A DNA stretch of 35,172 nucleotides, taken from the NCBI GenBank assembly GCA_026388545.1, contig JAPLJS010000079.1, positions 1 to 35,172 of the forward strand, written 5' to 3'. This DNA comes from Deltaproteobacteria bacterium (GTDB lineage Bacteria > Desulfobacterota > Syntrophia > Syntrophales > UBA2185). The translations under genes were made by a program, and so were the position numbers. Positions 2,058-25,863 of this stretch are shown piece by piece. Positions within the stretch are counted from its first letter, which is position 1. Each line of letters opens with the position of its first letter. A model generated the notes under the pieces. It was given only the letters and a program-made list of their open reading frames with translations. It had not been told where the DNA came from and did no database searches.

Positions 2058-2252
2058 TTGAGAAATGCCTTTAAACGAAGACTAAACAAAGCCATGCTCT
2101 ACACAAGATATCATCCCCTGATACAAATAGTCTGTAATTCCGTATGGGTAATATTGGGATTATGGATTTATCCGATTGAGAAAACAATTCTGTTGATACC
2201 CTTAATACTGGGCATTGCTTTCGGATTATATATATCGAGGGGTGGCAGATAG
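2058..2252 (+). CDS. Small hydrophobic protein, putative cassette gene
   Basis: A 64-codon frame opens with TTG at 2058, or with ATG at 2094. It encodes a basic N-terminus followed by two hydrophobic stretches (roughly residues 22-38 and 43-58) and ends in a basic SRGGR tail. It looks like a tiny membrane protein of unknown function. There is no clear ribosome-binding site. The best support is context: its stop codon is 5 nt before an attC-like site, the standard layout of an integron gene cassette. It could still be a chance ORF. Confidence 0.35.
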   Translation: MRNAFKRRLNKAMLYTRYHPLIQIVCNSVWVILGLWIYPIEKTILLIPLILGIAFGLYISRGGR

Positions 2253-2257
2253 TTTTA

Positions 2258-2315
2258 GCCCAACCATTTATTTCAGCCGACCGCCTTTGGCGGCGGCTGA
2301 ATTCGGGCGTTACTC
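2258..2315 (+). other. Integron attC-type recombination site
   Basis: This 58-bp site has the architecture of short (59-base-element) attC sites. It begins with GCCCAAC (R'' box, matching RYYYAAC). Imperfect inverted arms TTCAGCCG / CGGCTGAA enclose an inner CCGCC-TTT-GGCGG hairpin with one extrahelical base on one side. It ends in GCGTTACTC. The terminal R' box keeps GTTA but departs from the GTTRRRY consensus, so recombination activity may be reduced. Orientation fits a cassette whose gene (2058-2252) reads toward the site. No integrase gene or second attC lies next to it. Confidence 0.7.
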
Positions 2316-2493
2316 TCTTTCCATCCGTAATCCTCAATTCTGACAACTGCCCACCGCTGAACAGTAGTAGGTGTATAGTCGTAAATCAAGACCTACTTTG
2401 AAATTGATATAAAATTATTCTAAAAGACCATAAAAAATGAGGTAAAACGCCATTTTTCAATTTGCATTTCCCTGGAAGAAAAATCTTTCATCT

Positions 2494-2934
2494 TTATTTG
2501 ATATTCATGGCCATTCGTTTAATAGCATCCTTAAATAAGACTTCCATGCTTGTATCTGAGACCCGTCTGACAAAACCCAGGCCGAATAATTGATGCTTGA
2601 TCACCTCGTCAGGCTTGTATATGTCCTGAACGCGGTACACTTTTACTGGGATTTCCGGATTCATTTCACTATGCTTGCGTTCCCACTGGATGGGGGCATC
2701 GTTGACCGGCTTTCGGCTCTTAGATGCCGTCGTCACTCTTTTTTCTTGCCTGGGCTGCGCCACAAGATCATTGCTTTTTTTCTGTTGCGTTGCCGTTCTG
2801 TACATATGTTCCGAACCGCAGGTTTTACATTTAACCCTTTTAACTTTACCGTCAACTTCATACATGACAACGTGGGCCAGCAAGAGTTTACATTTCGTAC
2901 AGTGGGAATCGATATATTTTCCGACTAATGACAC
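2494..2934 (-). CDS. Zinc-ribbon protein of unknown function
   Basis: This 146-residue soluble protein starts at GTG 2934, 7 nt after an AAGGAG ribosome site. Cysteines at 12, 15, 36 and 39 form a CxxC...CxxC zinc ribbon. A basic, Gln/Lys/Arg-rich linker (about 50-90) leads to a compact C-terminal region, residues 100-146, containing YKPDEVIKH and a GFVRRV motif ahead of a conserved-looking VLFKD. The design (zinc ribbon plus small C-terminal domain) recalls short conserved proteins of Deltaproteobacteria, possibly nucleic-acid-binding. Function cannot be assigned. It is divergent from the TPR gene at 3002. Confidence 0.75.
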   Translation of the reverse strand: MSLVGKYIDSHCTKCKLLLAHVVMYEVDGKVKRVKCKTCGSEHMYRTATQQKKSNDLVAQPRQEKRVTTASKSRKPVNDAPIQWERKHSEMNPEIPVKVYRVQDIYKPDEVIKHQLFGLGFVRRVSDTSMEVLFKDAIKRMAMNIK

Positions 2935-3001
2935 AGGAATCTCCTTATGGTTATATTTTTTATTATGGATATTGAAATCTTGATCTTAAAGTAAAAAACC
3001 C

Positions 3002-3937
3002 ATGACCAACGCCAGAGAATACGCCGACAGAATAATCGAACTGGAGAGAAAGAGGGACTACCGTGGGGCGCACGAAGTGCTGAAGGAGGCCCTGACTATC
3101 TATCCGACCCATCCTTTTCTTTTAAGGACAGAGGTCTACCTGCTCCTTAGACTCAATAAGACAAAAGAGGCGCGGACCAAGGCGGAAGGACGGGTGGAGA
3201 TGCTGAAGAACGACATCTTTTTCCTAAAGACCTACCTCAGTGTGCTCCGGCAGGAAAAGGCCAAAGAAGACATGGAACGGCTGCTCACCGCGATCCTCTC
3301 GTGGGGTGTGGGCGATGAAGATTTTCATGTTTTCCTGGTCAAAACAGCCTCACAGTGCGTTGGCAGGGAAAAGGGAGAGGAAGTCCTCCGGCAGGCACTG
3401 GCGAGGTTTCCCGAAAGCGAACCCCTGAAGAAGATAGCGGCTGATGGGGAAACGGCAGAGGACGGCGCGAACAGGTTTACCCTTTACCGGCAGAAATTCG
3501 CCGGCAAGAAGACGGCGGAGGCCGTTGCCGAGATCGAGGCCATCATGGTGATGCCGGGTTACGCCGGGGATTACGATCTCCATCTCTATCTTGCCGACCT
3601 GTATAAAAAAATGGAAAGATACGATCAGGCCGTGGAGATCTATACGAGGCTGCTGGCCCTCCGGGACCATGAATTCACCCGCAAGATGCTGGGCTACACC
3701 TACTATAAGATGGGAGACAAAGAGCAGGCCGCCGCTTACCTGAAAAGCGTTTTTATCAAGCGGCCAGACGATCATTTTCTGGCTCGTACTATTTTCAAAA
3801 TCTTCGAGGAAAAGGCCGACTATACGGGATTGGAACAGCTGGTGGCCGAGGCGCTTGCCTTAAGACCGGAGGCGAAACACCTTTACGGATTACTGAAAAA
3901 GGCGCGACGATGGCAGAAAGACTGCGCGACATTATAG
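3002..3937 (+). CDS. Tetratricopeptide-repeat protein
   Basis: This is a 311-residue soluble protein with no signal peptide. It is helical throughout, with TPR-like units visible at about 5-40 (RDYRGAHEVLKEALTIYP), 190-225 (ERYDQAVEIYTRLLAL) and 225-262 (GYTYYKMGDKEQAAAYLKS). Such proteins are scaffolds for protein-protein contacts and no catalytic domain is present. ATG 3002 has no strong ribosome site. It is convergent with the amidohydrolase gene, 47 bp away. The specific partner is unknown. Confidence 0.85.
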   Translation: MTNAREYADRIIELERKRDYRGAHEVLKEALTIYPTHPFLLRTEVYLLLRLNKTKEARTKAEGRVEMLKNDIFFLKTYLSVLRQEKAKEDMERLLTAILSWGVGDEDFHVFLVKTASQCVGREKGEEVLRQALARFPESEPLKKIAADGETAEDGANRFTLYRQKFAGKKTAEAVAEIEAIMVMPGYAGDYDLHLYLADLYKKMERYDQAVEIYTRLLALRDHEFTRKMLGYTYYKMGDKEQAAAYLKSVFIKRPDDHFLARTIFKIFEEKADYTGLEQLVAEALALRPEAKHLYGLLKKARRWQKDCATL

Positions 3938-3984
3938 ACATCCGGTTCCTTGACGTATTCGACGGATGGCGTTTCGAGACTGAC

Positions 3985-4731
3985 TCATATCTTCAGCAAC
4001 CTTAAGATGTTGTGGCAGACAATATTTTCGAAATCCTGTTTTCCTAAGTTTAACCGGATTACTTCCTGGAGTTCGCTGCCGGGTGTACCGAAAGGAAAAT
4101 CGCTTCCGAAAAGGAGCCTGTCGCTTCCATACTTGTCCAAAAATGCCGATATTTCCCGCCCTGAAGCCAGAGCCGTATCGGCGTAGATGGTTTCATCATC
4201 CCATATCCCCGATCTGAATAGCGCGGTAAAGCCGCCGTTTAATCCACCCATATGAGGAATAATGATAGGGGTTCTCCCCTTGACTCTCCTGATGAAGTAC
4301 CGGGTGTTATCGAAAGATTCTTCGAGGACAATGGGAAGCGCCTGACGATAAACCTCCTGCAGGAATCCCTCACAGAGGGGATCGTCGTAATTATAGACCG
4401 GTTCATGTTCGTGGCGATGCCACTTAATTGCCTTGTAGCCTTTCTTTAACTCATCCTTCCTGAAGTCGTTCCATACAAAGTAATAGGAAAAGATGTTTTC
4501 TTGGGTCTGCTGGAGGTCTAACAGATAATTATTGGCCCGCTGCCTGCAGGTCATCCAGACGGAATTATCTTCGAAGTCATAGGTATACCGGTCATAGATA
4601 TCCTCGACAGGGGCAAAGAGACATGCACCCTGTATTCCCGCCGAATCAAGATATTGCTTTATGATTTCAAAGGGCAGATTGACATTCTGAATACCGCAGT
4701 GCATATGAGAATCGATAATTTTCGTATTCAT
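3985..4731 (-). CDS. Amidohydrolase family (amidohydrolase_2-like) TIM-barrel hydrolase
   Basis: This 248-residue protein has the metal-site pattern of the amidohydrolase_2 superfamily. IDSHMH at residues 6-11 supplies the HxH pair (H9, H11), PHMGG gives H160, and FGSDFPFG gives the C-terminal Asp (D211). The family includes decarboxylases and hydrolases acting on small carboxylic or lactone substrates, and the substrate here is unknown. A GGGAG ribosome site sits 8 nt before ATG 4731. The gene is monocistronic in appearance. Confidence 0.85.
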   Translation of the reverse strand: MNTKIIDSHMHCGIQNVNLPFEIIKQYLDSAGIQGACLFAPVEDIYDRYTYDFEDNSVWMTCRQRANNYLLDLQQTQENIFSYYFVWNDFRKDELKKGYKAIKWHRHEHEPVYNYDDPLCEGFLQEVYRQALPIVLEESFDNTRYFIRRVKGRTPIIIPHMGGLNGGFTALFRSGIWDDETIYADTALASGREISAFLDKYGSDRLLFGSDFPFGTPGSELQEVIRLNLGKQDFENIVCHNILRLLKI

Positions 4732-11984: not shown

Positions 11985-12021
11985 TTTAAATAAATATAAA
12001 CTGGGGGACAGAGTCCCCCAG
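11985..12021 (-). terminator. Terminator-like hairpin downstream of selenoprotein operon
   Basis: CTGGGGGAC (12001-12009) and GTCCCCCAG (12013-12021) form a perfect 9-bp stem with a 3-nt loop. Read on the minus strand it is followed by TTTATATTTATTT. It lies 140 nt beyond the stop of the selenoprotein gene and upstream of degP, so it probably ends the cyclic-nucleotide-binding/selenoprotein transcript. Confidence 0.65.
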
Positions 12022-12141
12022 AAAATCATTCATCTTAAACAGATTTTCCTCCGCATCAACAGCCTACCTTGATGATGACGGCAAGCACATGCGAAAGTAT
12101 TTATCGCCAACTGATCTATATCCTTATAAGTTTCGGTGTGA

Positions 12142-12160
12142 GACCGATTACCTATCGGCC
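12142..12160 (-). promoter_or_regulatory. SECIS-like hairpin for the C-terminal UGA
   Basis: Starting 11 nt after the second UGA (12173-12171), GGCCGAU pairs with AUCGGUC (one G-U pair) around the loop AGGUA. Seven base pairs and a loop containing GGU about 18-22 nt after the UGA match the geometry of bacterial SECIS elements bound by SelB. The hairpin sits just past the final stop codon at 12162, so it carries no coding constraint. Confidence 0.6.
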
Positions 12161-12161
12161 T

Positions 12162-12377
12162 TCAGACCCCTCAGGCACCCCCGTAGCCGATGGTTACTTT
12201 ATCGCCCTCCACAATGACCGGAACTTGCCGAACACCGCCGGAAATCTTGAGCATCTCCTGTAATTTTGCGCTGTCGGATTTCACATCGAGGTACTTTGCC
12301 TTTTTCCCGTAGGCCGACAGGGCCTGGTCTGTGAAAGGTCACCCCGCTTTTCCGTAAATGATAGTCTCCTCCGCCAT
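12162..12377 (-). CDS. Glutaredoxin-like selenoprotein with two selenocysteines (Uxx-star type)
   Basis: ATG 12377 follows GGAGG by about 7 nt. Read through two in-frame UGA codons, the frame gives 71 residues. Sec13 is in IYGKAGUPFT, exactly where glutaredoxins carry the first active-site Cys. A typical glutaredoxin fold follows (KYLDVKSD, RQVPVIVEGDKVTIGYGG with the cis-Pro), and Sec69 stands in GGAUGV-stop. A Sec two residues before the stop is what I recall as the Uxx-star glutaredoxin-like seleno-family; that name is from memory. Both UGAs have hairpins at SECIS spacing. Predicted role: cytosolic thiol/selenol redox chemistry. It lies 16 nt after the cyclic-nucleotide-binding gene. Conventional gene callers would miss it because the longest UGA-free piece is about 55 codons. 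Confidence 0.82.
12311..12325 (-). promoter_or_regulatory. SECIS-like hairpin for the active-site UGA
   Basis: Downstream of the UGA at 12341-12339, AGGCC and GGCCU pair around a CUGUC loop. The stem starts 14 nt and the loop about 19-23 nt after the UGA, the spacing expected of bacterial SECIS elements within the coding sequence. The stem is only 5 bp, so the evidence is mostly positional. Confidence 0.5.
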
Positions 12378-12393
12378 GATTTTCCCTCCGGTT

Positions 12394-24924: not shown

Positions 24925-25863
24925 TTATTTTCGAGTGATAAGGGACTTAACCCAAGTCATAGCAGACTCTATGACAAAAGTCTCTTGCTCCTGAGTTAGC
25001 TGTGGCATTTCTTCTGCACCAGGGCCATGCCCATGGGGATTTCTAAGCTCTGAAAATAACATCTTCAGCAAATTAGCCTCCCAGACGTCTATGAATCGCC
25101 CGTTCGACTTGCTTACTAAGTTGTCTATGTAGCTGGCAGCTCCTTTTTCCTTTCCAGATGTAAACCCCTTCTCATCAGAAATGATTTTAATAGTGCTTTC
25201 AAGAGCTTTAAAGGCATATAAGGCAGCATCCCTACCTTTGATGTCTCGCCTGTGGATGGCTTCTTTCATGTCAATATCAACGTTCTTCCATTTTTGATCT
25301 TTCAGGAGTGCCCAAAATGGCTCCTCAATTTCCTGCGCTATCACTTGATCGTTGGAAAATTGAATATAACCGTTGTGGTAATGTAGTGGAAAACCACAGG
25401 TGCGGAATCTGGAATTGAGCTCGGAGATGGCAGATGATAACGCCGCTGATAGAGAAGTATATGCGGCGATGTTTGTGGGAGAAAAAAGCCCTTTCTTCTG
25501 GGTTTGCATCGACTCTGCAAAAGATTCAAGTTCACGGAAGATGAGTTCTATAAGGCTGATCCTGAGCTTAATAAAATAGTCACCCTCTCCATGGCGATCG
25601 TTCCAAAGATTATAGCGTTCAAAAATCAGGAGCCCACAGATCTCATCGTCGGTGCTTCCTGGCCCCAACGACACTAATCCTATTTCTCTAGCAAGTTTTT
25701 TGTGAGATTTTGTGAAAATATCGATTGGGATTTTGTAACCCTTACAGATATCCTCAAAGATAATATGACCAGCCTGCGTGAATAAAATCTGAACTTGAGG
25801 AGGGATATTCCCACCGTAGAACAACGGGTGATTGTACCTCGTATAGAAAACATCGTTGATCAT
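24925..25863 (-). CDS. HEPN-like/abortive-infection (AbiJ-like, STM4504/CBY_0614-like) protein
   Basis: This 312-residue soluble protein resembles a family annotated as abortive-infection or STM4504/CBY_0614-like. It has DYFIKLRISLIELIFRELE (about 95-115), LNSRFRTCGFPLHYHNGYIQF near 150-172, and a C-terminal helical domain with a FKALESTIKIISDEKGF stretch. RNPHGHG at 274-280 resembles the HEPN RNase motif RxxxxH. HEPN proteins in defence systems typically act as RNases that halt growth after phage infection; here this is inferred. GAGGT precedes ATG 25863. attC-like sequences lie directly on both sides, making it a good candidate cassette gene. Confidence 0.7.
   Translation of the reverse strand: MINDVFYTRYNHPLFYGGNIPPQVQILFTQAGHIIFEDICKGYKIPIDIFTKSHKKLAREIGLVSLGPGSTDDEICGLLIFERYNLWNDRHGEGDYFIKLRISLIELIFRELESFAESMQTQKKGLFSPTNIAAYTSLSAALSSAISELNSRFRTCGFPLHYHNGYIQFSNDQVIAQEIEEPFWALLKDQKWKNVDIDMKEAIHRRDIKGRDAALYAFKALESTIKIISDEKGFTSGKEKGAASYIDNLVSKSNGRFIDVWEANLLKMLFSELRNPHGHGPGAEEMPQLTQEQETFVIESAMTWVKSLITRK

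Follow-up and report, generated by a model that had tools for sequence, protein, structure and literature searches.

A probable two-selenocysteine UXX-star family 1 gene beside a CNB-fold gene in a Syntrophales genome

The closest described relatives of the gene reported here are the UXX-star selenoproteins. A 2026 review (PMC13188914) lists NF041114 (UXX-star selenoprotein family 1) as distant Grx-like protein 1, with the motif UxxT and two selenocysteine (Sec) residues, and considers that Sec in the UXX-star families may bind metals or unknown substrates. The gene lies on the minus strand of a stretch of 35,172 nucleotides from a Deltaproteobacteria bacterium of the Syntrophales (contig JAPLJS010000079.1), which is referred to here, at its full length, as the window. 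An earlier note, made from the letters of this DNA, had called two Sec residues in so small a protein striking; we find the two residues supported, but since both the family and its two-Sec architecture are already catalogued (NF041114), the gene is an ordinary member and not a new kind, and the finding is less striking than the note had claimed.

Reading frame, family and fold

The coding sequence of 71 residues (12165..12377, minus strand) starts at an ATG at 12377-12375 and terminates at a UGA at 12164-12162; read through two further in-frame UGAs, it gives MAEETIIYGKAGUPFTDQALSAYGKKAKYLDVKSDSAKLQEMLKISGGVRQVPVIVEGDKVTIGYGGAUGV. The first of these (12339..12341, minus strand) encodes Sec13 at the active-site position, in UPFT (residues 13-16), a UxxT active site in a protein with a second Sec; TGC or TGT stands here in Cys homologues. 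The second (12171..12173, minus strand) encodes Sec69, the U of the UXX-star motif: the C-terminal codons are UGA GGG GUC UGA (U-G-V-stop), so that the Sec codon precedes the stop by three positions and the recoded and terminating UGAs (12171-12173 and 12162-12164) lie nine bases apart. All coordinates of the frame and of the two Sec codons given in the earlier note were reproduced, and its remark that gene callers would skip the gene was borne out: the program-made ORF list of the window contains no ORF for the 71-residue selenoprotein, and a plain ORF caller would therefore miss it. Upstream, a 16-nt gap with a ribosome-binding-like GGAGG (12378..12393, minus strand) separates the ATG from the stop codon of a gene for a CNB-fold protein; downstream, 3' of the gene pair and ahead of a Do-family (DegP) protease gene, lies a terminator-like stem-loop of nine pairs (12001..12021, minus strand), a kind of site of which two were found vs. 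1.1 expected by chance. An Rfam search of the window gave no matches. Elsewhere in the window (24925-25863, minus strand) lies a possible phage-defence gene whose product bears the AbiJ N-terminal domain (PF18863).

We scored the product, with Cys substituted for Sec, against NCBIfam and Pfam, and it matched NF041114 over nearly the whole profile (107.4 bits vs. a cut-off of 72; profile positions 2-70 of 70), exceeded the cut-off of the Uxx-star subfamily NF041212, and fell under those of UXX-star families 2 and 3 (NF041211 and NF047338). The Pfam Glutaredoxin domain (PF00462) was likewise recognised (31.8 bits vs. a gathering cut-off of 22.9), and a sequence profile search matched glutaredoxins with E values down to 9e-7. 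In the AlphaFold2 model (mean pLDDT 78.5) the elements run strand-helix-strand-helix-strand-strand, the C-terminal tail is the region of lowest confidence (last residues near 50), and the nearest PDB structures are mostly glutaredoxins and NrdH, all at E of at least 0.001. The glutaredoxin-like identity proposed in the earlier note thus holds. Judged from sequence, the gene is very probably a functional two-Sec member of UXX-star selenoprotein family 1, and its product, as modelled, is a minimal glutaredoxin-fold protein.

Conservation and candidate SECIS hairpins

We sampled 149 genomes and found an NF041114 match above cut-off in 63, and most of the better matches among these carry two in-frame UGAs; among the weaker above-cut-off matches, many stop at profile position 66 or 67 and have a single UGA or lack one altogether. 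Codons were read in 30 genes, the window gene and its 29 top-scoring relatives, a sample picked by score; in these best-scoring family genes, codon 13 is UGA in 26/30 and TGT or TGC in 4/30, and the C-terminal Sec codon is UGA in 30/30 (codon 69, or codon 68 in one relative, L042, that is shorter by one residue), followed by a true stop that may be UGA, UAA or UAG. The C-terminal Sec is therefore the more conserved of the two among the family genes compared. In many of a further 17 named records, with Deltaproteobacteria, Nitrospirae and Pelotomaculum among the sources, Cys13 is combined with a C-terminal UGA; the set is biased toward Cys forms because it was retrieved with Cys-requiring patterns. 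It also contains a more distant relative (L070) with Cys at both Sec positions, so that homologues with Sec or Cys were found for each UGA. Across 15 aligned members the protein frame is conserved, with 62-87% identity to the window protein, which argues against chance read-through; two of the genes, one from a Syntrophus MAG (L062) and L025, which is listed under the host's own order, encode an identical protein, and the host therefore probably belongs to the Syntrophus order. The window genome also holds a paralogue on contig C96 (L002; L012 1424-1624) with UGA-13 in a UPFC site, a single UGA and no UXX-star tail; it scores 88 bits against NF041114, above the cut-off, and the NF041114 model therefore covers two architectures.

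The earlier note had placed a hairpin loop about 18-23 nt downstream of each UGA, and both loop centres indeed lie ~21 nt after their UGA. SECIS-1 (AGGCC-CUGUC-GGCCU; 12311..12325, minus strand) lies within the coding sequence, with its loop centre ~21 nt after UGA-13; SECIS-2 (AGGCCGAU-AGGUA-AUCGGUCU; 12141..12161, minus strand) follows directly 3' of the stop codon, its loop centre ~20.5 nt after UGA-69, and since it starts past the stop codon, it is free of protein-coding constraint. Its fold energy is lower than that of shuffled sequences (z = -2.1 to -2.6), and when 13 relatives sharing its register are compared, pairing holds in 92% of cells, and both sides have changed in 12 cells vs. 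4.1 in shuffles. All slid registers performed much worse than the unslid one, a comparison that somewhat favours the unslid version, as register and structure were derived from the same sequences. In four relatives (L041, L043, L044 and L049) a simple ungapped search found the SECIS-2 stem weaker or interrupted.

The energy of SECIS-1, on the other hand, is unremarkable against shuffles (z ~ -0.2 to -0.6), and we therefore turned to a comparison between genes. At least three of the four core pairs are present in 28/28 Sec13 genes vs. 10/16 Cys13 genes (Fisher p = 0.001, a value weakened by the relatedness of the sequences; more distant proteins are present in the Cys13 set). Within the hairpin, 92% of two-UGA genes use GCC for Ala19, and no other conserved fourfold-degenerate position is as uniform, although the hairpin-free Gly47 still reaches 86%. 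Pair 18-30, which joins two wobble positions, occurs as G-C, G-U, C-G and U-A, and is unpaired in 6/26. The paired hairpins of the earlier note thus fared unequally, with SECIS-2 supported by both energy and covariation, and SECIS-1 by comparison but not by energy; a candidate SECIS hairpin is nevertheless properly spaced after each UGA.

Roles of the selenocysteines and the machinery that would insert them

In the mechanism that we propose, the two UGAs would be translated by SelB and tRNA-Sec, each guided by a hairpin of its own: SECIS-1, inside the coding sequence, would serve UGA-13, and SECIS-2, just beyond the stop, would serve UGA-69. We tentatively suggest, at somewhat less than even confidence, that Sec13 (U-P-F-T) acts as the nucleophile of a one-residue site and that Sec69, on a mobile tail, is the other redox group and resolves the intermediate formed at Sec13. 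The same two-Sec selenoprotein might instead use its selenocysteines to bind a metal, a metalloid or another soft ligand, with no redox catalysis. Such binding would accord with the metals or unknown substrates proposed for UXX-star families in the 2026 review (PMC13188914) and with a C-terminal Sec conserved beyond Sec13; however, the protein retains glutaredoxin features, the VPV cis-Pro included, and a scan of the window's 13 other proteins showed nothing that resembles metal resistance. We regard ligand binding without catalysis as unlikely, though a serious alternative, and accordingly place redox catalysis ahead of metal or metalloid binding among the predicted roles.

Whether taken as redox group or ligand, each Sec would depend on the insertion machinery, of which selA (612 bits), selB, selD and tRNA-Sec (selC) were all detected in the window genome; the tRNA-Sec scored above the gathering score and was confirmed by ARAGORN. 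Of the two findings that the earlier note had named as counting against its reading, a genome lacking Sec machinery and homologues lacking Cys or Sec at both UGA positions, neither was seen, with the qualification that the selB frame is interrupted in the assembly: selB (contig C15; L011 about 2161-4052) has a frameshift upstream of the last winged-helix domain, and if this were real, Sec insertion in this genome would probably fail. An intact selenoprotein gene might then go unread in the window strain, as the break ahead of the SelB C-terminal domain would imply. We think this very improbable: selB is a single unbroken frame in 8/8 family relatives, the assembly is a draft of 128 contigs, and selA, tRNA-Sec, selD and both hairpins have been kept. 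An error of the draft assembly is the likeliest reason for the frameshift. A candidate second SelB with internal stops on contig C114 was rejected, being an intact EF-Tu-like gene with the stops beyond the gene end. An in-frame UGA also lies close to the start of selD (L015, contig C117), which is thus probably a selenoprotein gene itself.

A cysteine glutaredoxin gene that had decayed through two nonsense mutations would likewise show two in-frame stops and no ordinary listed ORF, but this pseudogene reading is already refuted, and we give it next to no credence, because the identical UGA pair recurs in dozens of genomes across families, Cys homologues occur at codon 13, frame and residues (VPV cis-Pro among them) are conserved, and the two hairpins are well placed, one of them clearly covarying; the earlier note was right that the gene is not decayed. 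Genome-wide reading of UGA as another amino acid, e.g. Trp, would also yield in-frame UGAs, but it is equally refuted by homologues that show Cys, not Trp, at codon 13, by the tRNA-Sec, selA and selD in the genome, and by the window gene itself, which stops at UGA where relatives have UAA or UAG.

As a two-Sec selenoprotein, the 71-residue product is a clean case of Sec being inserted twice within one small protein, with the second SECIS lying wholly past the stop codon. The true UGA stop, nine bases past a recoded UGA, makes the gene a good test case for SelB discrimination.

The CNB-fold partner and comparison with known systems

Directly upstream and in the same direction lies the gene for a stand-alone CNB-fold protein of 161 aa (PF00027; 12394..12879, minus strand). 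In 31/60 CNB-bearing genomes, spread over six families, a CNB gene adjoins a UXX-star match on its upstream side and shares its strand (coordinates compared by eye, the UXX-star match being partial in a few), and one mRNA probably carries both the selenoprotein and this conserved partner. The CNB-fold gene is also found alone, and a second copy in the window genome (contig C112) is unpaired. Cyclic-nucleotide binders usually carry a Glu and an Arg in the phosphate-binding stretch; the corresponding stretch here reads GWS(S/A)VVEPY, and as the usual Glu/Arg ligand pattern is missing, nucleotide binding is doubtful. The coupling to a cyclic-nucleotide-binding protein that the earlier note described therefore stands as a conserved pairing, but not clearly as one with a nucleotide binder.

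A single Cys102 is invariant in all 36 CNB matches in 35 loci, paired or unpaired (some of the loci represent one gene drawn from two collections); we had considered that it might be confined to copies that accompany the selenoprotein, and rejected this since unpaired copies carry it too. The copies read through the C-terminus share a near-invariant ending, (I/L)L(V/I)GERGL, conserved in the form LVGERGL. One could speculate that the UXX-star and CNB proteins belong to a dedicated module of two genes, and that the redox or ligand state of Cys102 is either set or read by the double-selenol protein. We hold this to be a long shot; if true, it would amount to a selenium-dependent switch not yet described. 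A narrow literature search found no description of the CNB/UXX-star pairing. The conserved pairing in itself offers a concrete candidate partner for UXX-star proteins.

Compared with known systems, the window protein shares with UXX-star family 1 (NF041114) the full-length match, UxxT, the C-terminal U-x-x-stop and the two Sec residues; differences were looked for and none found. With NF041212, NF041211 and NF047338 it has the fold and the C-terminal Sec motif in common. With classical glutaredoxin 3, NrdH and the Sec-glutaredoxin of Clostridium oremlandii it shares the fold and a Sec or Cys at the first active-site position, but it is shorter, has Thr in place of the second active-site Cys, and adds a second, C-terminal Sec. 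It scores far under the glutaredoxin 3 cut-off, and it stops at a short GGAUGV tail, whereas classical glutaredoxins run on past that point.
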